Shown here in pieces: positions 1-61,382 of a stretch of 64,000 bases of DNA (its first letter is position 1; the number at the start of each line of letters is the position of its first letter). Position numbers and translations under genes: made by a program. The stretch spans positions 2,781-66,780 of the forward strand of contig BCJC01000008.1 in the NCBI GenBank assembly GCA_001600175.1. The letters run 5' to 3'. The notes beneath the pieces are model-generated. The model saw only the letters and a list, made by a program, of their open reading frames with translations. It did not search any database and was not told where the DNA came from. Source of the stretch: Erythrobasidium yunnanense. Taxonomy: Eukaryota > Basidiomycota > Cystobasidiomycetes > Erythrobasidiales > Erythrobasidiaceae.

Positions 1-161
1 CCTCCGGGTGGGTAGGCAGAGTCCTCCTTGGAGACTGTGCAGATGGAAACAGCGCCGCCGGGAGGGTAGACGTTGTCGTTGTTGGAGATGGTGCAGATGG
101 ATACTGCTCCGCCGGGAGGGTAGACGCTGTCATTGGCAGCTCCAGTGAATGTGGCAGACAT
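1..161 (-). CDS. Mating pheromone precursor, second copy (partial, runs off the window)
   Basis: The start codon is at 161 on the minus strand, the mirror of the start at 11388. The visible part encodes a short leader, two complete copies of the core YPPGGAVSIC and the start of a third. The base undetermined in the right copy is resolved here and gives Asn, so the leader reads MSATFTGAANDSV. The remaining repeats and the CAAX end would lie left of the window. Whether this is a second real gene or an assembly duplicate cannot be told from sequence alone. If real, the locus carries at least two pheromone genes pointing outward from a shared block. Confidence 0.7.
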   Translation of the reverse strand, partial: MSATFTGAANDSVYPPGGAVSICTISNNDNVYPPGGAVSICTVSKEDSAYPPG

Positions 162-847
162 GTTTAAAAGGTGATAAAAGTGATGGGGGATGTGTGGTAA
201 GGAAAGTGGATTTGTTGGTGGTGCGCTTGATGAGAAGGCAAGAGAAGAGCAATTGTAGCTTCTTAAGAAGGGTTCATCAGTGCCTAGTACATCATTGTCA
301 GCGCAAACAAAAGCTGAACCAGAACAATTAGACAGACTGAGACGGCATTTCGCCCTTTGTTGTCGCTTTTGTTGAAAATCGGCACTACAATGGAGCCAGG
401 TACTCAGCAAGTATAATAACCACCGTCAAGACGTGCTCATCAATACTTTGCGCACGAAGATTGCGAGATCATTATATCACGGGCGTACGCATGAATCCAT
501 GCTCTATTGTATCGGTAGCCAGACGATCAATCAATGTCAGGGCAGGTCGTATCATGACCCATTAGATACGAGATATGTCAGTGTATGATATTTTGGCCTA
601 TCTTGTAGACCCAGGCGTCGTAGATGACTTATCCGTCTCGAAGCTTGATGCTCGGGCCGGGAAAGTGCTCAGTAGAGCGGTACTAGAGCCATGTTATGGT
701 AGTTCATCCTCTTGAGTCGCATCAGCGCTTGGTGTACGAAGACAGAACGTATGCCTGCTCGTATAAATCCGTGAGGCTTCTTCAGGTGTAGCAGCTATAA
801 AGACCGGTTGCAAGGGCTTGCAGGACANTGATCCGATCGTTATTTCG
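162..847. promoter_or_regulatory. Divergent promoter between pheromone copy and carrier gene
   Basis: No gene is recognised in this 686-base stretch. It separates the pheromone start (161, minus) from the carrier start (848, plus) and is repeated in mirror image at 10702-11387. It contains one ACAAAGGG box (353-360, minus orientation) and several AACAA-type motifs of the kind bound by HMG-box proteins. It should drive both genes, but no TATA element was established. Confidence 0.5.
353..360 (-). promoter_or_regulatory. Pheromone-response-element-like box, left copy
   Basis: The minus strand reads ACAAAGGG, 192 bases upstream of the pheromone start codon. The same octamer is the core pheromone response element bound by the HMG protein Prf1 in Ustilago maydis. 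Its use here is inferred from the motif and its place upstream of a pheromone gene; an 8-mer alone is weak evidence. Confidence 0.45.
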
Positions 848-2522
848 ATGTCAGAAGGGAAACCAGTNAAAGGTACGAGCTACACTACCGAAGAGGACTA
901 CGGTCAACTGGCATTGACCGTCTCTGCATAGCTCTGCCTTTCGTCTGTGAGCACGCACTACTGCCAACTGCTGGACAGGCTCACCTCTGGAAGCTGACTA
1001 TCACATTGCAGACCAGTTTGCAGCTGGTGCGCTAGCGTAAGTAGAGGTGCTTTTCAGCACGAGTGTGCTCTTAGCCTGACCGTGCTCCTATCATCTGCGT
1101 TTCAGAGGTGTTACAGAGCTTCTATGCCTGTATCCGTTGGGTGAGGCCACGGTCCTATCCAGTCGTCTACTGTATTACCTGATTGCTGAAGCTTTCGTGC
1201 AGATGTCGTGCGTATCGAGTTATCGCTTACAAAACCCTGTCCGACTCCCTCCGTCCCCCAATCCAGGTCAAGACTCGTATACAGCTTCAGGCTGGCAAAA
1301 CCGCTGCGGGCGGCGTATACTATGATGGAATGGTCGACTGCTTCCGCAAAATCATCGCAGAGGAAGGGTACGTGGACCGATTTTCGGGCATGTCTCACCG
1401 TACCAATGCTAAGGCCTCGGATTTCATAGTTTCTCCCGCTTGTATAGAGGTCTAGGTCCACCCTTAATGCTGGAGGCCCCGAAACGTGCTGTAAAGTTTG
1501 CGTAAGTTACGGCTGTTCGGCTGTCTGCTGTAGGAATCTGATGCATTTCGCCCAGTGCCAACGACTGGTGGGGCAAGACCTATCGCGATGCTTTCGGAGT
1601 ATCAAAGGCAACACAAGGACTGTCTGTGCTGACTGGGTGCTCTGCGGGCGCGACCGAGAGCATTGTCGTGGTCCCCTTTGAGCTGGTCAAGATCCGCTTG
1701 CAAGACAGGAACAGTGCAGGCAAATACAAGGGCCCTATGGATTGTGTGGCACAGATTGTCCGCAACGAAGGTATCCTCGGCTTGTACAATGGCCTTGAAC
1801 CCACCTTCTGGCGGTAAGCTGTTCCACCAGGCTGCTAAACTTGAAATGCATACGCTTATGCCACCTCCAGACACGTCATGTGGAACGGAGGTTACTTCGG
1901 TTGCATCTTCCAAGTCAGGTCACTTCTACCGAAGGCAACAGTGAGCTCAGCTAGCTCTGCAGCTCAGGGTTCAGTACTGATATTGATGACCGTGCAGACG
2001 AAAGGGAACGAGCTGCGCAACAACCTTATATCGTAAGATCGCTAGTATTTTGATGCTCTACCGATCCTGAAATTATCGAGCAGCGGCACTATCGGAGGTT
2101 TCGTTGGTACAGCTTTGAATACACCCTGTAAACTGACTACTCGCACTCTTGGAGAAGCACGCTAACCTTGATGCCTTCAGTCGATGTCATCAAATCCCGT
2201 GTCCAGAATTCGCCAAAGGTGAGTCTCCAAATACGTGCAAACGGAGGAGGCTGATCCTTCGGTGCAGGTCACAGGCGTAACTCCAAAATACAATGTACGT
2301 CGATATCTGCTGAGTAGGTAGCTGTCGCAGCTGAACTCTCAAGCGCTGCAGTGGACGATTCCCTCACTTTTCATCGTTGCTCGAGAGGAAGGTGTAGGAG
2401 CCTTGTACAAGGGATTTGTACCTAAGGTACTTAGACTGGCGCCGGGAGGCGGTATTCTCCTCCTTGTCGTGGAGTTCACCCTCGATGTTTTTAGAAAGCA
2501 GCTAGGCTCGCCGTACATTTAA
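848..2522 (+). CDS. Mitochondrial 2-oxodicarboxylate carrier (ODC1/2-like)
   Basis: This is a mitochondrial inner-membrane carrier (SLC25 family), closest by eye to yeast Odc1/Odc2, which exchange 2-oxoadipate and 2-oxoglutarate. Three carrier signatures are visible: YPLDVVKTR, PFELVKIRLQ and NTPFDVIKSR. Odc-type stretches include VDCFRKII, LEAPKRA and LRLAPGGG. The coding part is split into at least ten exons. The first four can be placed at 848-872, 1012-1036, 1106-1140 and 1203-1207, then coding resumes at 1267. The fourth is only 5 bases and is needed to read Leu-Asp-Val-Val. Exons 1-3 lie inside the inverted repeat, and a truncated copy of them sits at 10401-10701. Base 868 is undetermined (third codon position of Val). 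The product assignment is firm to the subfamily; exact substrates are inferred. Confidence 0.88.
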
Positions 2523-2765
2523 CCTTCCCATGGCAAGAGATCCAGGAAACAATCTTCGTTGCAAGAAGACGTCATTTGCGTTGTAGCTACCGTTGTAGGT
2601 ACGTAGAGCCGTAGGCGCGAGTCATGTATTCGCGTGATTCGATATGCTATCGCCTGCAGCGCAACTTAAAGGGACTGAATACGTGATGGGAGATTGGATT
2701 ATGGCAGTCTTTAGGTGTTCCGCTATGTTGCTTCGCAGTATCGGCCATGCTACATTGCAGCTTCT

Positions 2766-3506
2766 TCACTTCTTTTTCACCTCCTTCCTGACCACTTTTT
2801 CTTCACCCACGAATATGCCTTTGCCGTTGTAAGGCTCAGGTTTCCTCCATTCGCGTATACGCGCGGCGAATTGGGCCAACCTTTGCTTATCAGGGCCCTT
2901 CAAACGTAGCTCTGTCGGGACTGGCACCTCGCACTCGATATCAGCAGGTATCTCGAGCCTGATGGGTCGGGGAAAACCAAGTCGAAGAACCAGTAGCCGT
3001 CCTGTCTGCGAATTCGACCTCGGCATGATATCGGAGTCCGTTCCTGGCTGCTCCCTACCGCTGGCCATCGGTGCACTTTGCTCTACGATAGCCCTGTATC
3101 CTACGCCAACGAGCCTTAAGGGCAGCGAGAAGCCCTCCGACAGTCCTGTCACTGCATTCGCGCACATGGCCCGGGTAAGACCCCAACGCCCTCGAGCTTC
3201 TGGATCATCCTGCTGTTGACAAGTAATGGCGAGGTGAGAATCTGGATTCGCAACCGTAGATGGTCGGATTAATGCTGTGATACCTGGGCCAAGGTGGACG
3301 TCTTGAAATCCTCCAGGACCAGTGACGCGGACTACAGTTGCAGATTTTCCAAGACGTGAGCTGTTGCTAGTATTGTTTGGAAAGATGTCGCATGTGATAG
3401 ATGGCGGTAGAGGTATTGGCTGAGAGCCTATGTGTGACAGTCGGCAGCTTGAGGAGCTGAAAAAGCGCACTGCGGCGTTGGCGCTTTGCCAGCTGATTGA
3501 GCGCAT
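2766..3506 (-). CDS. MRPL6: Mitochondrial large-subunit ribosomal protein L6 (bL6/uL6m)
   Basis: A 246-residue uninterrupted reading frame. The Arg/Ser-rich N-terminus fits a mitochondrial targeting signal. The middle has the L6 core VGVGYRA, and the C-terminus carries the bacterial-type L6 signature around PEPYNGKGI followed by a basic tail ending in KKK. The protein binds 23S-type rRNA near the factor-binding site of the mitochondrial ribosome. From memory, a mitochondrial L6 gene is among genes linked to the pheromone/receptor locus of red yeasts, which would fit this setting. It is convergent with the carrier gene and divergent from MRD1. Confidence 0.9.
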   Translation of the reverse strand: MRSISWQSANAAVRFFSSSSCRLSHIGSQPIPLPPSITCDIFPNNTSNSSRLGKSATVVRVTGPGGFQDVHLGPGITALIRPSTVANPDSHLAITCQQQDDPEARGRWGLTRAMCANAVTGLSEGFSLPLRLVGVGYRAIVEQSAPMASGREQPGTDSDIMPRSNSQTGRLLVLRLGFPRPIRLEIPADIECEVPVPTELRLKGPDKQRLAQFAARIREWRKPEPYNGKGIFVGEEKVVRKEVKKK

Positions 3507-3870
3507 GCTTAACGAGGTACTCGAACTTCGCTTTTTCCACTACAAGTGCCGCCGTGTTAGCTGTCGTTTGGGGTGATGGGAGATTGCTAATTTCAGATTT
3601 ACCCAGCGTAATGGCCTAGATGAAGAAGAGGAACAGTGTAACAGATAGGATAGCTTCGAGAGGATGGATTTGGCGAAGCTTCTTCTAGCGAGCAGCCTTT
3701 TCGTTCTCGCCGTTTAAAAGCTCGCAGTTTATCACTAGTCAAACATACTAATCACTCAACGAGGACGCAAGCAGTCGCACTTTCCCTCTTCTTACAGTGG
3801 ACTCTACCTTCGCTGGACAGCCTCGTCGATCCAGTCTTGAACAGATTTTAGATTGAACAGGATTCAAACC
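3507..3870. promoter_or_regulatory. Divergent intergenic region MRPL6 / MRD1
   Basis: 364 bases without a gene, lying between two divergent start codons. It presumably contains both promoters. I see no distinctive motif. Confidence 0.4.
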
Positions 3871-6226
3871 ATGTCGACAAGCCGGACAGAGGGTGCAAGT
3901 ACTCGCATGGCGCCGAAGCCCCAGAATACTTCTCGTCTAGTGGTACTGTCACTGCCCTCGGATCTGGATAACGCTGGACTCTCGACACACTTCTCTACAC
4001 TTGACCTCCCTATGACCGATGTCAAGATTTTACGCAAAAAGGATGGAACTAGCCGACGCATGGCTTTCATAGGCTACTCATCAGCTTTCGATGCAGCTAA
4101 AGCAAAGGACTGGTTCGATAATACCTGGCTTCGAGGCAGTAGGATCAAGGTTGATTTCGCACTTCCCGTAAGCCCGTGATCAGCATTCACTGATGGCGAC
4201 GATTCGAAATTGGCTGAAGACAGACTGTCTTGTCAACTGCAGATCGACAACGCCCAACTGCACAGTCGCAAACGGGGTCGCAGCCCGCCTTCACAAGCCA
4301 GCCATGCAACGGCTTCTGGAAAGGATGCTCCAACATCCGATGGACTCGCTTTCACCGACGCTCTCACGAGCGATGCGAAGACACAAATAGAACAGGCAGA
4401 TCATACCAATTCGGAGCTCAGCGACGCAGAATATCTAGCGCGTCGTAAGCGGCGATTGATAGGGAATGGAGAAGTGCCGGAGGCGTCTTCCCCACCAGCA
4501 GTGCGTCTACTACTTCGGAGCACATACATAGTGACAGTCAAAGTATCGCTAAGCAACGATGTGGCATGCCAGACTCAAGACGCTATGGCTTTGCAGCCTG
4601 CCAAAGAGGAAGAACCTCAAAATACTCGGCTGTTCCTCCGGAACTTGCCCTTCGACACAACTGAAAGCTCACTTCGAGAGGCTTTCATGGCATACGGTCC
4701 CATCGAGCAGGCACGTACGGAATTGCTTGAAATCCTCTCTGTATAGCTGACAACGCCGCCTAGTAGATACACATCCCCACTGCTGGCAAGCACTCTCGCG
4801 GGCTTGCATACGTCACATATGCTCGATCTGCAGATGCTCTTTGTGCCCTAGAAGCTCTCGATGGTCACGGCTTCAACGGACGCCTTCTGCATATTATGAT
4901 AGCACAACAAGAGTCTACATCTGCTGGTGGCGCTAACCAGGTCTCCCGAACTTCAACGTCTGGCAGTTATAGGCAGACAAAAGCCGCAAAACTACACCAT
5001 AATGCCGACAAAGACTTCAACTGGGCCGCCCTTTACATGAATGTCCGTACAGCGTCAAGCATATATACTGTCATTAGATGCTGACGCAACGCCTAGAGCG
5101 ATGCTGTTCTAAACTCTTTAGCCAAACGGTTGGAAATACCCAAATCCGATATCCTCTCGCCCGAATCGAGTGGTGCTGCCGCCAAGCTTGCTCTGGCGGA
5201 GACGATGCTTTTGAAAGAGACCCGAGAATTCTTTGAAGCGGTGCGCGCACCTCACTCCGACCGTAGAACAATTGACTAAGTGTAAATCAGCATGGGGTCC
5301 GCTTTGATACACAAGACAGTACCGCTGCGCGATCCTCTACCATTCTACTGCTCAAAAATTTACCTTCAGGAACGAATGCAAACACTATTCGAGGCCTCCT
5401 TAAACCCTACGGCACATTGAAGCATCTGCTCATTCCACCATCGGGACTTGTAGCGATAGTGCAATTCGAGGACCCTCAAAGCGCAACTTCAGCTGTGAAA
5501 GCTGTAGCATACTGCAAGATCGGCAATTCCATCATCTATGTCGAGCGCGCTTCTTCCAAGTGCAACATTTCAGAACGAGCAAGTCTTCCGAAGCGAGAAT
5601 CTAAATCCATGGATCCCGAAGATCCGGTTACCGACAGCACTAGCTGCCTCTTTGTACAGAATTTTCCCCGGGGGACGGAATCGAAGGCTCTGCAAGACCT
5701 CTTTGTATCCCACAGCGGATTCCGCACCATGAAGATCGTGCAAGACACCACGAATAAAATAGAATACGCATTCGTCACATTCGGGAGTAAAGAGGCCGCT
5801 ACTAAGGCATGTGGGGAATTAGATGGCACACTATACGCCGGGAGGAGACTCAACGTTGCGCTCTCGAAACAACGCGACTCGTCTTCTGATACTTTGGAGA
5901 CCAGCGGAAGCGCGACTTCGAAGCTCATCATCAAGAACTTGCCATTCGAAGCATCTCTTGCAGATTTGCGTACGATACTGAGGTTAGTGCTATATACTTA
6001 CCGACATAAAAGTGGCTCTCGCTCACTTAAAACATGCCATTGCAGTCCATACGGCAAGCTACTCTCTCTCCGCATTCCACGCAAAGCAGACCAGACTCCC
6101 AGAGGATTCGCATTCGCCCACTTCGCAAGTCCCGCTCACGCCCAAATGGCGCTCGAAAACCTCAAGCATACTCACTTGCTTGGAAGACACTTAATCATAG
6201 AATTGGCTACCGGTGAGGTAACGTAG
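3871..6226 (+). CDS. MRD1: Multiple RRM protein, MRD1-like ribosome biogenesis factor
   Basis: The protein has several RNA-recognition motifs in series, matching yeast Mrd1, which binds pre-rRNA and is needed for early 18S rRNA processing in the SSU processome. RRM1 begins RLVVLSLPSDL and contains the Mrd1-type RKKDGTSRRMAFIGY. A central RRM begins NTRLFLRNLPF, and later ones begin SCLFVQNFPRG and KLIIKNLPFEAS with PRGFAFAHF. The ATG at 3871 is used. Intron 1 is 4168-4242. The exon junction after the central RRM1-like RNP2 (around 4705-4770) could not be fixed with a standard donor. The protein ends without the charged tail seen in yeast Mrd1, so a further 3' exon may have been missed. Confidence 0.82.
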
Positions 6227-6993
6227 GCCATAGATACCTCTGGAGACACGTTTGTGCGGCAAAGGCGCACACTACATGCCATCCGGTAAAGTGGCGAACC
6301 TTAGCAGCGACGGGAACCTCCTCCTCAACCGCGGCAAGCGGTTCCTCCTCTCGGAGCTCGTACGGCGCCTCTCAAGGCAACCCCGGTTCCGCATGCCCCG
6401 CCAACTGTCAAGTGTGAAAGTATTTTAGCATTACTACGTTCGCTACGGGCAGCGCTTTCAGATGTAGGACTATCGATACGATACTGTTTCGTCTGAACAG
6501 CTGCGATGTGCACGTTTATGCCTTTCGAACGTTACCGGTAATCGCGATTCCCTTTGCGCAAGCGACCTGTTTTGCTTCAAGCTGAAGCGTAGCTGCACTA
6601 CTGGAATCCTATAATGTAAACACGCAATTCGAGACAATCGTGCACATGACGAAGGCGCCTGGAGTCGAAGTTCCGAACAGCCGTGAAAAGCAGCCGGCCT
6701 TGCATTTACAGGGATACTACTACTACTGCAGTCGAAAGCTGGATTACTTTTGACACGGAGGGTGGGGAATGAGAAAAAAAGGCCATCTCGCACACACCCA
6801 CTAAACAAAAGGCCTTTTGATCGGCCGCTCAGCTAAGACCAGCAGACCAGCGTTGGATGAGTCGAACCTCTCATTTTGGAGCAATATAGCCTTCACACTC
6901 CTGCATTCACGAGAACATCTCGCTGAAGCCTAAGAACGGCAAAGACGGACAGTGACAAAGCTTCCAAATCTTCTCCAAATCGCCTGCTTTCCC
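6227..6993. other. Intergenic region, no gene seen
   Basis: About 770 bases between MRD1 and the zinc-finger gene. Short frames on both strands resemble no protein family and none shows convincing splice sites. It includes a GC-rich, CCTC-repeating stretch at about 6310-6400 and an A/T-rich segment near 6765-6830 just upstream of the next gene. Confidence 0.4.
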
Positions 6994-7576
<583 letters not shown>

Positions 7577-7580
<4 letters not shown>

Positions 7581-9591
7581 ACAGCGCGGGCAACCATCTG
7601 CAGTATAGCTTTGCAATCAACAGTGCTTTTGAGTCGACTACAGAGTAAAAAACAACCGCTTAGTTTCCGATTCAAGCTATAGGTTTCGGATGGGGGTGGA
7701 GTGGTTCGGTTTTCGAGTATCGTGGGAATAGAAGCTCGAATACGGGAGGTGATGTCCTGATTCGCAAAGGAAAAGGTATCCTGTTGGAATGGCTCCGCCA
7801 AAGCCAGCATTGCGTCCACGTGCGTATTCACCATGACCTGGAGAATTATTGGCTGTTAGCAAAAGCTGCATGCAATGAGCCAGTGCACTAGCCTCTTTAT
7901 CGTTTGATGTAAGATAGCCTATTTCGTGGGAGATGTCCAAACAAGTAGATCTGTCTCCTCGAATAGCTGCTTGCAGTAGCTCTCGATACAAGCCAATGAA
8001 AGGCTCTTTGTAAGCCTGACTGGCACCAAAATCGACTATCTCGAGCTACTGACATTGTAAGTTCGGCATAGAGACTGCGTCTCGCACATTGAACCCACCT
8101 GCTGCGTGTCTTCATTCCACAAGAAATTACTCCAGTTTGGATCGGTCTGCATGAAGCCGAATTGGAAGAGCTCGCGCAAGCACAGTTCGATGATTAGCGA
8201 GCCGATCTGCCGATCGTCAATTTAGTATGTAACCTTGAGCATGGTTCAAGCGTACTGACCTTATTACGCAGAGGCTCAGGATAATCGAGGAGCTTTGTGA
8301 CAGGAACGCCTTGCATCATCTGCATGGTCAGGACTCGACGCGTGGAGAGACTGTCCACAATGTTTGGGACCGCGAAAGCAGGGAGACCATCGACAAGCGT
8401 TCTGTAACGACGAGCACAAGCTGCCTCGTACTCATAATCGCATTCCTGCGCCAATTCGCTGCGCATCGTTTTCAGCGTGTTCTCCAGATACAGGCCTCGA
8501 GGCAGAAGTGCAGAGAATGATAGTAGGAAGCGAATATTGCCTATGTCTGCATCGATAGAATTTGCGACACCAGGGAACTGCACCTTTACGGCAACCTTGG
8601 TGCCATCGTGAAGGGTGGCAGCATGAACCTGGCCGATGGAAGCCGCAGCGAAGGGTACCAAGTCGAAGGCGCTGAATCGCTGCCGCCAATCGAGACCCAG
8701 CTCTATTGACATAACCTCCTGTACCGAAAGTTACTTCAGCATTATGCAGTAGATTGTCAAACGAGCCTTCTCACGTTCGTTTGCCATTCTGGCATGTAAT
8801 CGGCTGCGTTCTGCACTCTTGCGAGCACCTGTTCCAATTCGGGAGGCAACACATGGGATTCTAGTAAACCTCAGCAAAAGATTCTGCTCGAACTGAGCCT
8901 ATCAGCTAGTACCTTGAATGCTCAGAAACTGTCCCAGTTTCAAAGCTGCCCCCCGCATACGGGACAGAGACTTAACTAATCTGTTGATGTTGCTTTCGGT
9001 CAGCATGGCTGACGGGGACCCAGAGCTGCGTCCGCTTTTGAAGAAAGAACCCGCAGCTCCAAGTCCGAGTCCTGTCGCCAGGCCTGAAGGAGTTCTTAAG
9101 ACCTGACGATGCGTCTCGATCTGACAGCACTCACCGCCATACTGGAGGACGCGTGCAATGCGTGAGCTTGGTACCCTGCTAGCACGTCCTCGCGTTCGCA
9201 GATTCAGCTTGGAGTAGATAGAGGAAATCAGTTGGAGTGCGGTGAGGAAGTCAAGCAGAAGAGTCAGGAGAAGTACCTTAGTAGGTGCACTTCTGCCTGC
9301 ATCTAGGCTGCCCTCCGTGTTATCTTTTACGGATCGACCTTGGCTCTGGTCCAACGCCTCTAAATGCAGGTGTTCTCCGTCCAGCGAAGGAGTCTCCTGT
9401 CTGCTCTTCGTCGCAATATCTTCTGTACTGTCTGGCTTCGACCTCTGTACGGACGGCTCTACTTCTGGAGCAGCTCTGGAAAGCGCTGTCGAGGAGAAAT
9501 GGTGGACACAGGCGGAGCTCCTAGCGCATGCACCGAACCCACGCTGGACCGTACAGCGTCCTAGCAGTGGCAGTATGGCAGGCGCAGGCAT
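7577..9591 (-). CDS. COQ8: COQ8/ABC1 (ADCK) atypical kinase of ubiquinone biosynthesis
   Basis: A mitochondrial UbiB-family ATPase/kinase required for coenzyme Q synthesis. Family hallmarks are present in order: the KxGQ helix [14 protein letters not shown], the Ala-rich nucleotide loop [11 protein letters not shown], the catalytic-lysine strand [10 protein letters not shown], the QECDYEYEA segment, and the family signature DPNWSNFLW followed by an LDFGAS metal-binding motif. The N-terminus is a plausible mitochondrial presequence. Several short introns interrupt it; one splits the [13 protein letters not shown] / [10 protein letters not shown] region. ABC1 has been reported near pheromone/receptor loci in red yeasts (from memory). 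It lies between the two arms of the inverted repeat and is convergent with the zinc-finger gene, sharing bases of the stop codon. Confidence 0.9.
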
Positions 9592-10400
9592 GTCCTCTTA
9601 GGAAAGAGCACAGGAGCAAGGCCAAAGAGGCAATGTCATCATGGTCATCGGCAGACATTTCCCGACAACCACCGGCTCGTTTCAATCATTATCGAGGCAG
9701 CTGACATATAACCCTTTCTTCCCTAACGCGCAACCCCGTCGTAGTATTCGATGGCTTTGCAGTGTGTACTGACGCAGAAAGGCCCTTATCCGCCATTCCT
9801 CCGCCTAGCTAGCTGCTGAAGTGAAGGACCACGCAGCATAACTGGCAGCATGACTTGGTTGGTCTGAAAGATCCGTGGTGAGCTGCGCTGGTCTTAGCGC
9901 TCGCTGAGACACGCTCAGCTTGATTCACCTTACTCATCCCCCTCTAAACAGTCGCAGGGGAAGTGAGTTGATTTACGACTCGACTCGGATATTACCACAA
10001 GCTAGCAGCCTACTTGTATGTGTATACAGCAGACTGATTTGCCCTAAAAGCGATGGTGGAGCCTGTGCTGGAGGTACAATAAAGCACTGGAGCGCAGTCA
10101 CCCTGGTTCCCACTCGTCTGCCGATGGCAAAAGCCAGCCTTGTTATCTGCGGAGTCCCCACGAGCTTCGGTTATATCGAAACATGAAAGCGTAATTAACA
10201 GTCTACTATTGTTACTAATGATATCAGCTTGTCCTCGTCCCCGGACCTGACCCAGCCGCTTACTTGGTCCGGCTCAACAAGCCAGTATGCCTGAAAGGTT
10301 CGTGCTGCTTGGACAGCTCTGGCAACCGAGAGGATGAGCAACATTTGTCTCCGCAGATTTCCACAGGCTGGCTTCCAGCCATTCCACGAGAGAAGCATTC
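9592..10400. other. Intergenic region up to the right repeat arm, no gene seen
   Basis: About 800 bases. It starts with the COQ8 promoter side and ends exactly at the repeat junction (10401). Frames at 9920-10186 (plus) and 10195-10398 (minus) have no recognisable domain, composition or splice pattern. No transposon ends or direct repeats were seen next to the junction. Confidence 0.4.
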
Positions 10401-10701
10401 GGCCTCACCCAACGGATACAGGCATAGAAGCTCTGTAACACCTCTGAAACGCAGATGATAGGAGCACGGTCAGGCTAAGAGCACACTCGTGCTGAAAAGC
10501 ACCTCTACTTACGCTAGCGCACCAGCTGCAAACTGGTCTGCAATGTGATAGTCAGCTTCCAGAGGTGAGCCTGTCCAGCAGTTGGCAGTAGTGCGTGCTC
10601 ACAGACGAAAGGCAGAGCTATGCAGAGACGGTCAATGCCAGTTGACCGTAGTCCTCTTCGGTAGTGTAGCTCGTACCTTTNACTGGTTTCCCTTCTGACA
10701 T
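10401..10701 (-). pseudogene. 5' fragment of the mitochondrial carrier gene
   Basis: On the minus strand this repeats the carrier start codon (10701) and exons 1-3, ending with the coding stretch LLCLYPL and eight bases of intron 3. Beyond 10401 the sequence is unrelated to the carrier, so all later exons, including two of the three carrier signatures, are missing. It cannot encode a working carrier. It marks where the duplicated segment stops and shows that the left arm is the parental arrangement. Confidence 0.85.
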
Positions 10702-11188
10702 CGAAATAACGATCGGATCANTGTCCTGCAAGCCCTTGCAACCGGTCTTTATAGCTGCTACACCTGAAGAAGCCTCACGGATTTATACGAGCAGGCATAC
10801 GTTCTGTCTTCGTACACCAAGCGCTGATGCGACTCAAGAGGATGAACTACCATAACATGGCTCTAGTACCGCTCTACTGAGCACTTTCCCGGCCCGAGCA
10901 TCAAGCTTCGAGACGGATAAGTCATCTACGACGCCTGGGTCTACAAGATAGGCCAAAATATCATACACTGACATATCTCGTATCTAATGGGTCATGATAC
11001 GACCTGCCCTGACATTGATTGATCGTCTGGCTACCGATACAATAGAGCATGGATTCATGCGTACGCCCGTGATATAATGATCTCGCAATCTTCGTGCGCA
11101 AAGTATTGATGAGCACGTCTTGACGGTGGTTATTATACTTGCTGAGTACCTGGCTCCATTGTAGTGCCGATTTTCAACAAAAGCGACA

Positions 11189-11196
11189 ACAAAGGG
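11189..11196 (+). promoter_or_regulatory. Pheromone-response-element-like box, right copy
   Basis: ACAAAGGG lies 192 bases upstream of the pheromone ATG at 11388 and is the mirror of 353-360. It equals the core of the Prf1-bound element in Ustilago maydis. Nearby AACAAAAG-type motifs could be further HMG-box sites. The function is inferred. Confidence 0.45.
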
Positions 11197-11387
11197 CGAA
11201 ATGCCGTCTCAGTCTGTCTAATTGTTCTGGTTCAGCTTTTGTTTGCGCTGACAATGATGTACTAGGCACTGATGAACCCTTCTTAAGAAGCTACAATTGC
11301 TCTTCTCTTGCCTTCTCATCAAGCGCACCACCAACAAATCCACTTTCCTTACCACACATCCCCCATCACTTTTATCACCTTTTAAAC

Positions 11388-11801
11388 ATGTCTGCCACAT
11401 TCACTGGAGCTGCCAANGACAGCGTCTACCCTCCCGGCGGAGCAGTATCCATCTGCACCATCTCCAACAACGACAACGTCTACCCTCCCGGCGGCGCTGT
11501 TTCCATCTGCACAGTCTCCAAGGAGGACTCTGCCTACCCACCCGGAGGNNNNNNNNNNNNNNNNNNNNNNNNNNNNNNNNNNNNNNNNNNNNNNNNNNNN
11601 NNNNNNNNNNNNNNNNNNNNNNNNNNNNNNNNNNNNNNNNNNNNNNNNGTCTACCCTCCCGGCGGCGCTGTTTCCATCTGCACAGTCTCCAAGGAGGACT
11701 CTGCCTACCCACCCGGAGGCGCAGTCTCAATCTGCACCGTGTCCAAGAACGATGCTGCTTACCCTCCAGGAGGAGCGGTCTCCATCTGTGTGGTTGCCTA
11801 A
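11388..11801 (+). CDS. Tandem-repeat farnesylated mating pheromone precursor
   Basis: A short leader is followed by repeats of 18 residues (54 bases) with the invariant core YPPGGAVSIC. Spacers between cores are TISNNDNV, TVSKEDSA and TVSKNDAA. The last core ends in CVVA, a C-terminal CAAX box for farnesylation; the fungal pheromone Mfa1 of Ustilago ends the same way. Internal repeats carry CTVS/CTIS, CAAX-like but followed by a cleavable spacer, exactly the layout of Rhodosporidium rhodotorucine A precursors. The mature product is probably a peptide ending in farnesyl-cysteine, such as YPPGGAVSIC. The frame runs through the N gap by arithmetic. Merging the flanking 71-base repeat also keeps frame and gives 80 residues with four cores. 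Upstream in-frame extension to 11139 is rejected in favour of this ATG. One base (11417) is undetermined; the left copy gives Asn. Confidence 0.9.
   Translation: MSATFTGAAXDSVYPPGGAVSICTISNNDNVYPPGGAVSICTVSKEDSAYPPGXXXXXXXXXXXXXXXXXXXXXXXXXXXXXXXXXXVYPPGGAVSICTVSKEDSAYPPGGAVSICTVSKNDAAYPPGGAVSICVVA
11549..11648. other. Assembly gap of exactly 100 N inside the pheromone gene
   Basis: A round 100-N run is the usual placeholder for a gap of unknown size. The 71 bases before it (11478-11548) are identical to the 71 bases after it (11649-11719), and both are in the same reading frame. The gap therefore probably has no real length, or hides a variable number of 54-base repeat units. Confidence 0.95.
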
Positions 11802-12682: not shown

Positions 12683-14225
12683 ATGCATCTTGGCCGCGAG
12701 ATAGTGAGCCAGGTGAGTAACGATATGCCCAGATAGATGTACGCTGCTTTCGTCCGCTTGAGCTGACGTTCCTTGTGTCGCAAGTCACCTCCCCGAGATC
12801 AGGCTGGCGTGTGGCCTGGGAGCCAGCTTTTGCGATGGGATCCTGATCAATTCAGCACGGTATGGCGTCGGTCATCTTGAAGAGTCTGGCGAAGCTCATC
12901 CTTTACTCGTATGGATCGTCATCCGTCTGACAGAGATTGCACCTGAAAATTAGTCGAGTCTCGCAACTCGAAGCCGAACTCGACATCGTTGGCGTAGATA
13001 CTTCTGTAGCAAATGCTATACGACGCGTCCTAATCGCTGAGGTACGTTCAAAGCTGGCAGATACAGAAGCTTTCTGATGCGGAAATTTGGCGGATTGCTT
13101 GCATACTTTTATCCTCCTTCGACAGGTACCTACTGTCGCTGTCGAGAATGTCTACATCTGGAACAATACTACGCTTGTGCAAGATGAAGTTCTATCTCAG
13201 AGGCTGGGTCTCGTCCCTCTACGTATAGATCCCAAGAAGGTCGAATTTAAAGGACGTAAGCTCTTTTCCGCTAAGAAATTCTATGAGCATTGCTGATGCG
13301 GTTGCCTTGTCATACTACTACAGCCGGAGAGGAGCCTACGGATCTCAACACTATCGTCTTTAGTCTTGTCGTGAAATGCGAACGCAACCCCAAGGCGAAG
13401 CGGAGCGAGACAGATCCCGAGAAGCTTTACAACAATGCACATGGTGCGCCTGTCCCTGAAGCCTCTCCTTACCTGATCAAGCGCTGATGACTTTTCTGCA
13501 CCTTACTTCTAGTCTATTCGTCGGCCTTTGCTTGGCAGCAGAAAGGTGTACAGACGGATATCTTTGCAGACGACCCCCCACAACCTGTCTTTGACGATAT
13601 CCTACTTGCGAAGCTACGAGGGAATCAGGTGAGCGAGTCGCTAGTTGCCCAGCTTCCGCGCAACATGGGTTAATATCAATCGTACGATCAGGAAATCATT
13701 CTTGAGATGCATTGCGAGAAAGGCATCGGCAAAGATCATGCTAAATGGTCGCCAGTAGGTGAGTCATCTGAGTTATTCCTTCCCATCTATTGGCACGCAG
13801 CTGAGTATACCGCTTGCAGCTACGGCATCGTATCGGCTATTGCCGACGATAGACATTCTGACGCCTATATTACCCGAGCTATGCGACAAGTTTGCGGCCT
13901 GTTTCCCGCCGGGCGTCATCGCAGTGGAAGAAGACAGCAAAGGCCGGAAAACTGCAAGAGTCGCAGACGCTCGCAAGGATACAGTCAGTCGGGAAGTTCT
14001 GCGGCATCCAGAATTCGAAAATTCGGTCAGGCTGGGCCGGAAGAGGGATCACTTCATATGTAAGTGGTGATCTCGATTTCCAGGAGTAAACTTTCTAAAA
14101 AGCTTTTGTTCTCAGTCAACCTAGAGTCAGTCGGTCAGATACCTGCCAGCGACCTGGTACCTCAATCTCTGGAAATTCTCTTAAGCAAGATTACGAATCT
14201 GCGAAACGCGTTGGCAGAACTATAG
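12683..14225 (+). CDS. RPC40: RNA polymerase I and III shared subunit AC40
   Basis: Nine exons (12683-12712, 12785-12859, 12935-13041, 13126-13255, 13324-13444, 13513-13628, 13692-13758, 13820-14059, 14116-14225) give an intact 331-residue protein. It is the alpha-like subunit common to RNA polymerases I and III. Signatures are [63 protein letters not shown] and [17 protein letters not shown]. Length and motif order match yeast Rpc40. The start ATG lies in a 30-base first exon and is supported by all downstream phases closing. It lies immediately right of the pheromone gene, on the same strand. Confidence 0.93.
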
Positions 14226-15134: not shown

Positions 15135-15591
15135 GCACGAAAGAGAAGATAGAAATGCAATACCGAAAGTGACAGTTTTCTGCGAACTAGCTGTTGTCGT
15201 TGGCTATAAACTACCACCTTAGACAAGCATGCTCTACGATGCAGTAACAATCAACCAGTAACCAATGAATTCAAGAGCACGCCCAGGTCCGGGTGGCAAC
15301 GGCTATTTGGCTTTTGCTGATCAGGTACAAGAAGACCTTAGACTGATGATAAGATGGAAATGCACATGCAAGAACGTCCTTTCCTTGAGGACTGGTGTGG
15401 CTTCATCTTGAGCTTCTCCGCTTCTTCTCCTCACTTTCCGCAATTTGGGGCGTTCCTGAGACTCCGCTAGTGCGGTGCCTGTCGTCATTCAGCATGCAAC
15501 GACCAAACCCCCAAGACTAGCATTTCTTCCGGACTACTTCTCTTCTCTCTTTCCTCCCTATCGCAGCCCTTCTCTCAGTCTCAAATCCAAC
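15135..15591. promoter_or_regulatory. Promoter region of the beta-lactamase-like gene
   Basis: 457 bases without a gene. The last 170 are strongly pyrimidine-rich (CTTCTTCTCC and TTCTCTCTTTCCTCC runs), a common feature of fungal promoters and 5' UTRs, and lead directly into the ATG at 15592. Confidence 0.4.
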
Positions 15592-17131
15592 ATGCGCGTA
15601 TTGATAACCGCCCTAGCTCTCGCAGGAACAGCAGCTGGTGTGACGATCAACTCATATCCAGCAGCTGCTGTGAATGTCCTCATCAATGAGGATGCTCCTG
15701 GGTCCATAGATACAATCATGCCCGGAACCAACATGTCGGCTTCGCTGTCGCAATATTACCAGACAACCTTGAACAATACCCTCAAGATTCCAGGAGGCGC
15801 TCTCTACATCTCTACCTCTGAGGGTACACTCCTGAAGTCCTTTGGGAGCGATACTCTGGAATCCTATGTTCCCTTCAAGCTCGAGAATCACTTCCGAGTC
15901 GGCAGTCTTACAAAGACATTGGTAGCAAGTGCCGTTCTGAAGCTAGTATCCGAAGGCAAGATTGACATGCGCGATGTGAGCATCTATCCCCGAGAGACTC
16001 GAGAAGACAAGGCTAATATTCCCTCCTAGACATGGAGCAAATACTACAACGGCACCCAAGCATTCCCTTATGCCAACGAAATCATGGTTCGAGATCTCCT
16101 CGGCATGACTTCAGGCGTCTACAACTACGTTCGATCGAGGGAGGCAGCTCAAATCCAGAGCACGGATCCTACTCTGCCATTCAGCTATGATCAGATCATA
16201 GACGTGATACTCAAGAACCAACCGTATTATGAGCCAACTGACAGGCAGACTGGCAACTACAGTAGGTCTTTCGGATTAGATCGTTAATCGGCTAGCTGAC
16301 CGATCGACAGGCAACTCAAATTACATCCTTCTTGATCACATCGTGGAGCTTACTGCTGGAATGCCGACCTCCCAATACATCGACACCAACTTCTTGCAGC
16401 CTCTCGGCTTATCCGCCGACACTTTCTGGCCTTCCGACTCTTACACTCTTGGCAACCCCCACGGCGAAGGTTACGGACCATGGCCTCTTGCGTCTACCAC
16501 AACTTACGGAAACAAGACAGCTTCCAACCCTTCGCAGGCCCTGGGCGCCGGCGCCTACGTATCTAATCTGCGAAGCCTGAAGGTTTGGATCGAGGCTACG
16601 GTAGCTGGATTTGGTTATGGAGGTACTACGAGTGGTTTACATGGCGAACGTACTTTCGGCTACGTTCACAATCTTGGCCAGCCTTTGCCTTACAATGTTT
16701 CCTTCGACTACGGCTACGGACTCATGAAGCTTAACGATTACTGTGAGTATACTGTCATTGATGAACACTCCTATTCTGACAACCTTGCAACTCAGACGGC
16801 CACGATGGCAGCATCTCTGGCTTCACGACGGTAGCCTTCACCAATCCAAAGAAGAACATTACTTTAGTCTGCGTCGGCAACACCGGTCCTGTAGGAGTGT
16901 GAGTACCCATCTGTAATCTACTATGTAGCATCCTGCTGACTCGTACACATCCTTCGAAGCACCGCCAAAAACGCTGTCGAAATGCTGGCCATCCTTGATC
17001 CCGATTTCCTCACCAGCACAGGATCCGGACAGGGTGCTGATATTATCCCTCCCAGCGCACCCAATGTCAACCCGCCCAACGCTCCCAATGTCAACCCTCC
17101 CAACGCCCCAATGTTAACCCCCCCAATTTGA
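15592..17131 (+). CDS. Secreted beta-lactamase-like serine hydrolase
   Basis: Five exons (15592-15975, 16030-16261, 16311-16742, 16796-16898, 16960-17131) give 440 residues. An N-terminal signal peptide (MRVLITALALAGTAAG) indicates secretion. The class-C beta-lactamase/penicillin-binding fold is shown by the nucleophile motif SLTK in FRVGSLTKTLVAS, a Y-S-N triad element before SNYILLDHIVE, and a GHDGSISGF motif in place of KTG. Fungal members include esterases and D-aminopeptidases; the substrate is unknown. Several N-glycosylation sites (NMS, NNT, NGT, NKT, NVS) fit a secreted protein. The C-terminus has an NPPNAPNV repeat. The last copy is one base short, which shifts the frame and ends the protein at LTPPI. 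Confidence 0.85.
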
Positions 17132-20698: not shown

Positions 20699-21070
20699 GC
20701 AGGATCTTTCGGTTCGTCTTTCTCAGCTGACGTTCCAGGTTACAGGTCTCGAAGGGAGCGTGCATCACGCAAGTAGCCAGCGTACGAATGGAGTGTCGAA
20801 AAGATAGTAACGAAATCGTTATTTAGTTTACGTTTGGGTAGATTGGTTCGCTTGTTAGGTAACGCTTTGACGAGTCTGAAGTCATGACTAATGCAATCTA
20901 TGAAGAGTTCTGAATCATAACCAGTCCTGCTTCGATGCTTTTCGACGCGTCTTGCCTCGGTCCCTCTTCTTTGGTTCCTCACTCGCCCAAATCAGCGTCA
21001 ACAATCGCTACTCGACACTTCAGCCAGCAGGACTCTGCATCTGCTCGATAGCGAGGAATCAGCAGTCAAT
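20699..21070. promoter_or_regulatory. Intergenic region upstream of STE20
   Basis: 372 bases without a gene; it is the presumed STE20 promoter. No ACAAAGGG element was noticed here. Confidence 0.4.
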
Positions 21071-23733
<2,663 letters not shown>

Positions 23734-24001
23734 ACACGGTCTTTAGCCTCTTGGTTGCTTCGCAAGCAGTGCAGTCTTGAAGACTGGGGATGTATCGGGG
23801 ATTTCGTTGGAGAGGGTGTACTGTTGTGTATCTGCTGTACTTGAATATGTGCCAAAAGCAATCTAGCTCGATTATGACTGTCACAGCCCGGACTCATGTA
23901 ATTTTGGACCGCTCCATAACATGCGGTACACTCCATTCGCATATCGCTGCAATACATACCAAAATCACTCTGCTACTGCCCTTAGCTAGCCTCTGCTTGC
24001 A

Positions 24002-58145: not shown

Positions 58146-61100
58146 TTAGAACAAGCCGAACCGTCTATTCCCACTACCCCTCGATGCTGAAGCAGATGAT
58201 GATGCATGCCGTATAGGTCCTTGCCTCTCCTGCTGTAGTCTTAGAAGTCCGCCAAGCTTCTCAGAGACAAGCTCGAGCTTTTCCTTCCTGTCTTGCAGAT
58301 CTAGATGATTCCGGAACTTGGGATTCTCGCGTGCAAACTCTAGGATCTCTTCCCGCGTGAGGTTGTAGCCCATCTGGGTCTCGATTTGTCGTGGTAGCTT
58401 GAAACAAGACTTAGCTAGGACAGACGAAAGTTGTCCAATGGCTTAACTTACCAGATGAAAGTACTCCTGCAAAAGCTCGATGTTGACAAATTGCACGGCT
58501 GTAGTAGCTAGCTTGTCCGCCACGATGTTGAGGAAGGCTTCCGGGCAGTACACCCGCATGTCGTCTGCTGTCTTTTCTGAGTATCGAGTACACTGCCTCG
58601 ACTTCAGGACCGATATACGAGCTTTGAGCAGTGCGATAGTTCCTTGATGCGCTCTGGCTTCTCGTGCTACATTCATATCGATCAGCACTGGATTGCTATG
58701 AAACGATACTTCGTACTCACCTTTCTGAATCAGAATCGCATTATATGCAGGCCGGGTCGGGTCTTCCGCATCTTCTTTGAGTAGCTCATTCTCCACCTCT
58801 TGCTGGTCCTGCGATGCTCCACTCAATCTCTGCGCCATGGCAGCTCTCCTCGCGTTGATCTTCTGTTTCTCCCTCGCTTCCAGATCATCGATATACTGAA
58901 TGACGCTCTTCAACTTCCTACTCCCACCAACATTATCTCTTATTCTCCCGATATCCTGATCAAGTAAGCCTATCTCCCTGTTCAACAGTTCTATACTCTC
59001 TTTCCGCCCTTTCTCCCAGTCGCGGCCTTCAGGATCCAGCTCGACTTCGTGCTTGTATGGCTTGATACACGTTTCGATCAATTCGGCTGTTCCAGGAAAC
59101 TTGTTTCGTAAGATCGCATCGGAGTACGCATAGATTCGCTCAGCTATCGAAGCATGGTTGATAAGCGGGTCTTCCTCCATCAACCCCGAGGAAATATGCG
59201 TCCGAAGAGTGTCGACTACAAGCTGTGTAGATCTCCGTCCTACACCAGATTTCGTAAGAGCAGAAGTAGCTGCTTCCAATTTGCGCTTCCATTGTGCAGC
59301 TGGATCAGGCTGGCCTTTCACAGCATCTGGATTGCGTAATTTGCGTGCTCGCAGCTCATCGACTTGCGCTGCTACGCCAGATAGATTCCGCATGTCCCCA
59401 TCCTCGCTCGTGTCCGTCCAGTATTTCTCAGCTAGTTTCTCCATCGCTTCATACTCCAAGTAGCTCTTCAGTATTTCCCTAATCTTGGGTTTGCCATAGT
59501 ATTCTTTGAACATTCCCAGCTTCTGTTTGAGAACATCCAATGTTTCCGCTAGATAGCTTTCTGGCGAAACGGTCCGGTCGTTGTATTGGACCTTGAACTG
59601 ATATTTCGCTTCTTCGAGCTCTTGTTGTACGGAATTACTGATAGAATGCAGGGAGTTGGCCATGCTTTCCTCCAAGACGTGCATCAATCTACGTTTGAGC
59701 AGATCGGTAGTGACTTGGATCCCTTCTCTGCTGAATTGCTCGCGATGAGAGCCGAAATATTCTTGCTCTTGCCGGCGAACAGGCCCTGCTAACCCTTCGT
59801 CTTCGGCATTCTTGACGCGAATAAGGTCCCGTCCTTCTCGTGATTTCGCTGCCGCTTTGCATACGACGCCAATGTATCCTAGTGAGAGGGGATATCGCTT
59901 ATTCGTAAGTATATCGGCGCCGTGCTGTGGCTCTACTAGGTCCATCTTCGTAACGACACCTATCGTTCGCATACCCAGTGGATCCACGCGGCGACTCGCT
60001 TTGAGCGCAGGCGAGTTTGCAAGATCTACATCCGCAGCACACACTGCTAGGATAATGTTCGGCGGCTTGATGTATTTCTCGCAGAGGCTGGCTATCTCGT
60101 CCTTGAGCGTATCAGGCTGGTCCATTGACGAAAGCTCGATATAGCCAGGCAAGTCGACAAGTGATAGATCGGGAACATTGGGAGAATGGATGCGCAACTC
60201 GATGGGTATAGAGGAGACCGCTTGTGAAGAAGGGATGGAGAGATTCATGTCTAGAAGCTTCTTCTGCACGTCGGTGAAGTCAAAGATGTGCTGTCCAGGT
60301 GCAAAGACTGGGAACTCGGCGAATGTCTTTGGATGCGGATTGGAGGGAGTTGCAGGTGTGTGAATGAGCGTGAGTTCGATAGGCCGGCGCGTGACCATAT
60401 TGTTTCCCCTAAGCATACACCATTAGCAGGATTCAGCATCCTTGATGATGAAAGCTTGCTCACTTGGGCAGAAACTCCCTTCCTACGACAGCTTCAAGAA
60501 CACTGCTCTTGCCGCTACTCTGGCTTCCCACAACGACGATAGCAGGTAATTGCAAGCTCTCCTTCTGGTCTATACTGAGTAGGATTGAGCGTATCTCGAT
60601 GAGTTTCTTCGTCAACATCATGAGATCTTGCGTGGGGTCGTCGCCGTGTCGGTCCTCGTCGTCTTCTGTATGACTTACCACAGGTAAACTTGCAGCCATT
60701 GCTGCAGCTGCTGCCATCTCGCTTGGTGTGGGTGTCTTCCTGGGCGGCGGCTTCTGCTGTTGTTCTTGTTGCCCTTCAGAGCTTCCCTGCTGTCCTTCTG
60801 TCCCAGCTTCCATTATACCCTGTAAGAAGGACGATACAGTCCTCCATACTCCCGTTCCAAACTGCCTGACTTCATCTGCACTTTCTCCCACCGCCGTTCC
60901 CGCTGTGCCTAATGCACCTCCAGCTTTCGTGAGTACGCCATTGACAGTCGTCCACGCTTCTCCCAGGCTGTTCTGTATCGAGTTGCGCGCTTCTTCTACT
61001 TTGGATACGACGTAGACGCCTGAAGCTGCTGCTCCGCCGACAATGACGACGGGCAGCCGCGTGGATGCTCTCAGGATCAGCCGGGGGATGAAAGTATATG

Positions 61101-61317
61101 AGATTGCGCGAGTCTGCTGGCCATTGCCATAGATCTTGCTGGTCCCATTGCGAACGAGCGCCGTGCTCAGATGGTGGTGGCCTCTTCGGTGTAGGAAAGT
61201 ATGCAATGAACGAGGTGTAGCATTGTTGATGATGGATATCCGTCGCAAGCTGTTCCTCGTCGTCGTCGCTGCTACTGTCCGCCTGAGAAATGCACCACCT
61301 CGCAGAAGCCGCGACAT
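58146..61317 (-). CDS. MGM1: Mitochondrial dynamin-like GTPase MGM1/OPA1
   Basis: Drives inner-membrane fusion and crista maintenance. An Arg-rich presequence (first 90 residues) is followed by a membrane anchor (LPVVIVGGAAASGVYVV), then a Gln/Pro-rich linker where proteolytic processing is expected. The dynamin GTPase domain has GSQSSGKSS (G1), DLPGY (G3) and TKMD (G4). Middle and GED regions follow, ending in NRRFGLF. Four or five exons. Length near 990 residues fits the family. It is divergent from the CCDC174-like gene across 65 bases. Confidence 0.93.
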
Positions 61318-61382
61318 GGCATCGTTTCAAGGGTTGTCTTAAGACGAAGCAGCAACAATATACAAATTCTAGACAAAAGGCA
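61318..61382. promoter_or_regulatory. 65-base bidirectional start-to-start spacer
   Basis: Only 65 bases separate the divergent start codons of MGM1 and the CCDC174-like gene. Both 5' UTRs and core promoters must be very short or overlap the coding regions. Confidence 0.6.

Follow-up and report, generated by a model that had tools for sequence, protein, structure and literature searches.

A putative multi-copy farnesyl-pheromone precursor in an inverted gene pair at a basidiomycete mating-type-like locus

Pheromone genes of the multi-copy kind are short and repetitive and easily escape annotation. The question raised by this locus is whether one small repetitive open reading frame (ORF) in the window, i.e. 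the whole stretch of 64,000 nucleotides analysed here, is such a gene, and how its apparent length and a second, mirrored copy should be read. The elements of the reading frame are as follows.

11388 to 11801, plus strand: right-copy pheromone precursor ORF, ATG to TAA, with an assembly gap inside
11388 to 11426, plus strand: leader MSATFTGAA(N)DSV, with a single ambiguous base at 11417
11427 to 11456, plus strand: core 1, YPPGGAVSIC (DNA pattern match), followed by spacer TISNNDNV, which has no lysine
11481 to 11510, plus strand: core 2, YPPGGAVSIC (DNA pattern match), followed by spacer TVSKEDSA
11535 to 11548, plus strand: beginning of the next core, broken off by the gap
11549 to 11648: assembly gap of 100 N
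11652 to 11681, plus strand: first core after the gap, YPPGGAVSIC, with the same sequence as core 2
11706 to 11735, plus strand: core YPPGGAVSIC, followed by spacer TVSKNDAA
11760 to 11789, plus strand: final core YPPGGAVSIC
11787 to 11801, plus strand: CAAX box CVVA at the C-terminus, then the stop codon

When the whole window was searched with a degenerate DNA pattern of YPPGGAVSIC, up to two mismatches being permitted, seven matches came up, all exact: five lie in the ORF 11388-11801 and the other two between 39 and 122 on the minus strand; the same pattern had no match in 100 shuffles. The reading frame and these matches confirm what had been noticed in the first-pass annotation, namely 54-base coding repeats with an invariant decapeptide, variable spacers and a CVVA end. 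In each complete unit the inner cores are followed by CT[VI]S and the final one by CVVA (TVSK occurs in two of the three distinct spacers, the third reading TISN), so that CAAX-like spacers lie between the tandem copies of the peptide and the precursor ends in YPPGGAVSIC-VVA-stop, i.e. in a C-terminal CAAX box. The GC content of the window, taken in 2-kb steps, stays between 0.48 and 0.54 and does not indicate a foreign island. A separate 24-base tandem repeat (3.4 copies, 17047-17126) gives NAPNVNPP-like units in one frame.

How the copies differ from one another is informative. The cores come in four distinct sequences; 8 of their 30 columns vary, and every one of these is a silent third position (P = 7.7e-6). 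Only the decapeptide frame is invariant among the six, frame -1 of the cores being nearly so, with two variable positions out of nine, whereas the distinct spacers (TISNNDNV, TVSKEDSA and TVSKNDAA) differ in their amino acids. Silent-only variation in the core next to spacers that vary in amino acids is a signature of selection acting on the decapeptide YPPGGAVSIC.

The length of the array is another matter. The bases at the two edges of the gap are identical over 71 positions (11478-11548 equals 11649-11719) and the spacing of cores across it is 225 bases, a distance that 54 does not divide evenly, and the run of 100 N is therefore probably a placeholder. Given the exact identity of the edges, the core at 11652 may be a second count of the one at 11481, and the simplest reading would be that two overlapping contigs were joined by a placeholder run of N. 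That reading gives 161 + 153 - 71 = 243 bases, or 80 residues (80 aa) with four cores, and an array longer than four cores is possible. The ORF described in the first pass is thus present, but its 137 aa cannot be taken as a measured length, owing to the 100 N inside the array and the 71-base identity of the edges. The left end of the window carries the same 71 bases on the opposite strand and, as a result, the overlap alone cannot tell which end of the 11.5-kb stretch meets the RPAC1 side (see the neighbouring genes below).

This left end holds a second copy of the gene, within an inverted repeat whose elements are these.

1 to 161, minus strand: left precursor gene copy, 5' part only, the window starting within its third unit
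1 to 1148, minus strand: left arm of the inverted repeat, 1148 bases
10401 to 11548, plus strand: right arm, equal to the left arm except for the N at 11417
848 to 2500, plus strand: mitochondrial carrier gene, oriented away from the left precursor copy, its first exons falling within the left arm (approximate ends, exons assigned by eye)
10407 to 10701, minus strand: right-arm fragment of this carrier gene, from its 5' part, the likeness stopping just inside an intron
11189 to 11196, plus strand: ACAAAGGG, 199 bases 5' of the ATG, with its mirror at 353 to 360 on the minus strand

Read from 161 to 1 on the minus strand, the left copy comprises the leader, two complete units and the beginning of a third, and it halts at the mirror image of the base where the right copy reaches the gap. 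This assembly therefore contains more than one precursor gene in inverted repeats, the left one partial. The arms include 987 bases 5' of the ATG, among them (by eye) the first exons of the carrier gene, which is supported by a Mito_carr family match among the scanned ORFs (ORF 1542-1814 was tested). Only the left side holds the continuation of the carrier gene, with VKTRIQLQ coming next; to read PLDVVKTR there, the gene seems to require a micro-exon of about 5 bases flanked by an intron on either side (within 1142-1267, plus strand, by eye). The 9252-base segment between the arms (1149-10400) could flip by recombination, the arms being identical and inverted, and the window does not tell its true orientation. 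The upstream motif ACAAAGGG, which resembles the smut pheromone response element in its core, is not rare, with three matches in the window and at least three in 15 of the 100 shuffles, and as a candidate response element it offers a weak lead.

The strongest rival explanation concerns this pair. It accepts a true pheromone gene and holds that assembly artefacts account for both the length of the array and the second copy, one gene having been drawn twice. Base 1 of the window exactly mirrors the base that borders the gap on its left, both arms have the same sequence, two ambiguous bases lie at mirrored positions (828 and 868 versus 10721 and 10681), and exactly 71 bases are common to the gap edges and, on the other strand, the left end; contigs from k-mer graphs share exact end overlaps of this kind. 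However, the arms lead into different unique sequence, the mirrored ambiguous bases may reflect two slightly different copies or two alleles, and the carrier gene, which continues at the left and stops within an intron at the right, speaks for a real duplication that started from the carrier side, the truncated piece in the right arm being its trace. We consider the artefact improbable, and it contradicts the gene pair only, leaving the pheromone reading as it stands. The inverted arms with their truncated carrier piece are likely to be one more instance of a pheromone gene kept as a mirror-image duplicate at a mating locus.

Around the inverted repeat, the window contains the following genes.

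2769 to 3539, minus strand: mitochondrial ribosomal protein uL6 (uL6m), as an ORF
about 3841 to 6223: multi-RRM protein (ORF 5276-6223 tested)
8197 to 8730: ABC1 kinase
12931 to 14222, plus strand: RPAC1 (RNA polymerase I/III subunit), split by introns (one exon tested, the rest and the ends by eye)
20921 to 23777, plus strand: STE20-type PAK kinase, PBD domain included (approximate ends; the ORF tested is 21618-23177)

The best match of ORF 5276-6223 was to polyadenylate-binding protein, RNA binding motif protein 19 being matched as well, and the multi-RRM protein is probably of the RBM19/MRD1 type. Two ORFs of PF00144 (the beta-lactamase family) at 15460-16831 on the plus strand, between RPAC1 and the STE20-type kinase, are probably a single intron-split gene, and a dynamin-like GTPase of the MGM1 type lies at 58446-61326 on the minus strand. 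In red yeasts, according to PMC3236058, RibL6 and RNAPOL adjoin STE3, RHA2 was amplified between STE20 and KAP95, and the MAT A1 pheromone genes of two species lie in inverted repeats whose likeness is presumed to be maintained by gene conversion. If RibL6 is uL6m and RNAPOL is RPAC1, as their names alone imply, the linkage of uL6m, RPAC1 and the STE20-type kinase within 2769-23777 fits the red-yeast mating locus.

No STE3-family match was obtained with 495 ORFs searched through alignments (E up to 0.01) or with 20 searched singly (E up to 0.001), partly overlapping sets drawn from the 581 ORFs of at least 55 aa, the remainder of which are mostly other frames of genes already named; such a scan would overlook a receptor that lies beyond the window or is broken up into short exons. 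The LSm7, RibL18ae and KAP95 families were likewise absent among the scanned ORFs, where short exons could also escape and where nothing to the left of base 1 is covered. A tRNA scan of the window with the bacterial code found none.

These neighbours also bear on two rival identities for the gene itself. Repeated motifs occur as well in secreted or cell-wall repeat proteins processed by KEX2 (PMC6339444 and PMC9769878), for which the terminal CVVA would be a coincidence. Against this, the readable precursor has neither a dibasic site nor a visible signal peptide (by eye), every complete unit has its cysteine followed by T-V/I-S or V-V-A, and both the inverted duplication and the mating-locus-like surroundings would be left unaccounted for, making a KEX2-processed protein very improbable. 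A hybrid-type precursor like Trichoderma HPP1 (Ascomycota) shares the repeated CAAX-like motifs but is scarcely credible here, since, according to PMC3068285, HPP1 has the repeated motif (LI)GC(TS)VM with two Kex2 sites and orthologues in Hypocreales only, and the neighbours here resemble a basidiomycete locus.

The silent-only variation of the core, the CT[VI]S and CVVA ends, the inverted duplication and the linkage of the STE20-type kinase, RPAC1 and uL6m thus lead us to hold, with high confidence, that the ORF is the precursor of several identical copies of a farnesyl pheromone and one of an inverted gene pair at a basidiomycete pheromone/receptor locus. On the same evidence (silent-only core, CAAX-type ends, inverted duplication, mating-locus neighbours) the first proposal of a putative multi-copy farnesyl pheromone precursor is upheld. 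The host probably belongs to Pucciniomycotina.

Genes of this kind are already known, the design being that of rhodotorucine in red yeasts. The copies in the rhodotorucine precursor begin with YP, are separated by four-residue spacers (TVSK or TVAK) and end in a CAAX box, the last one being CTVA; work by Akada in 1989 reportedly had the rhodotorucine A precursor encoded by several genes. Compared with it by descriptions rather than by sequences, the core YPPGGAVSIC lacks a charged residue, the spacers have eight residues instead of four, one of them being lysine-free, and the final box is CVVA and not CTVA. Mfa1 of Ustilago maydis similarly ends in CVVA, although it yields a single peptide per precursor and there are several copies here. 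The tandem copies, CAAX-like spacers and inverted repeats recall RHA1-RHA3 of Rhodosporidium toruloides MAT A1, and the rhodotorucine A precursors are described with CAAX-like spacers between tandem pheromone copies in PMC3068285. Rhodotorula graminis has a pair of identical precursor genes, RHA1.A2 and RHA2.A2, whose upstream regions are identical too, as well as an identical stretch of about 280 bp that lies inverted downstream of RNAPOL (PMC3236058); in this likeness of gene arrangement, not of peptides, the arms here are 1148 bases long and take in part of a carrier gene. The MFA1 precursors of cereal rust fungi (Puccinia) resemble ours in holding tandem pheromone repeats, three per precursor, in a single protein, whereas the repeats (predicted Pgt peptide QWGNGSHMC) are termed similar in PMC10977897 and the core here is invariant.

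Against the pheromone reading, no Pfam pheromone family was matched by three queries up to an E of 10; sequences this short are often missed, and such a match does not strictly define a precursor. The best Pfam match was TM_HPP (E 7.8e-5, 22.7 bits, under its cut-off of 27.2), and this and the other near-matches, Big_11 and EEP_ig-like, all below their cut-offs, were dropped because they probably reflect composition. Other YP...C candidates in the six frames were set aside, having neither a repeat nor a stop right after the box (by eye). The core pattern had no match in viral contigs or in bacterial and archaeal genomes, a result uninformative on fungi. As for the novelty of the peptide, the text of open papers did not yield YPPGG together with pheromone; for YPEISW or TVSK, nothing related was found among the matches listed, as judged by titles and the starts of abstracts. 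No peptide like YPPGGAVSIC appears in the available portions of PMC5295586, PMC4915694, PMC9296135, PMC4469406, PMC2916851 and PMC5871698. By this open-text search, YPPGGAVSIC appears to be undescribed.

The readable precursor has a short hydrophilic leader and (by eye) no arginine. For the peptide's cleavage, farnesylation, export and receptor we infer the following route. Farnesyltransferase modifies a C-terminal CAAX, so the inner units must be separated before modification. The precursor would be cut between units, near the acidic spacer, giving fragments that end in C-T-V/I-S and a last one in C-V-V-A; the cysteine of each would be farnesylated, the last three residues would then be lost, and the mature lipopeptide, YPPGGAVSI-Cys(farnesyl), would be exported and would signal through the STE3 receptor carried by the opposite mating type. 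Masses were calculated for three N-terminal options (the bare decapeptide, or one extra Val or Ala), farnesylated YPPGGAVSIC having a calculated m/z of 1167.65 as the free acid and 1181.66 as the methyl ester.

A cut after lysine followed by removal of that lysine would yield the CTVS ends; core 1, however, is followed by a lysine-free spacer, and a purely lysine-directed release therefore does not fit. The leader and each of the three distinct spacers share the context D-x-(V/A)-Y-P-P, which suggests an alternative cleavage point. Tentatively, and as a possibility we would not yet favour, the inner copies may be freed between D-x-(V/A) and Y-P-P, with trimming halted at the double proline, and the gene pair may be kept identical by conversion through the inverted arms.

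If true, release at this point would differ from the lysine-spacer route of rhodotorucine for internal copies, and the lysine-free spacer bears more widely on how inner copies are released and farnesylated in tandem precursors. The gene points to the mating locus of its host, and the peptide can be synthesised and tested.
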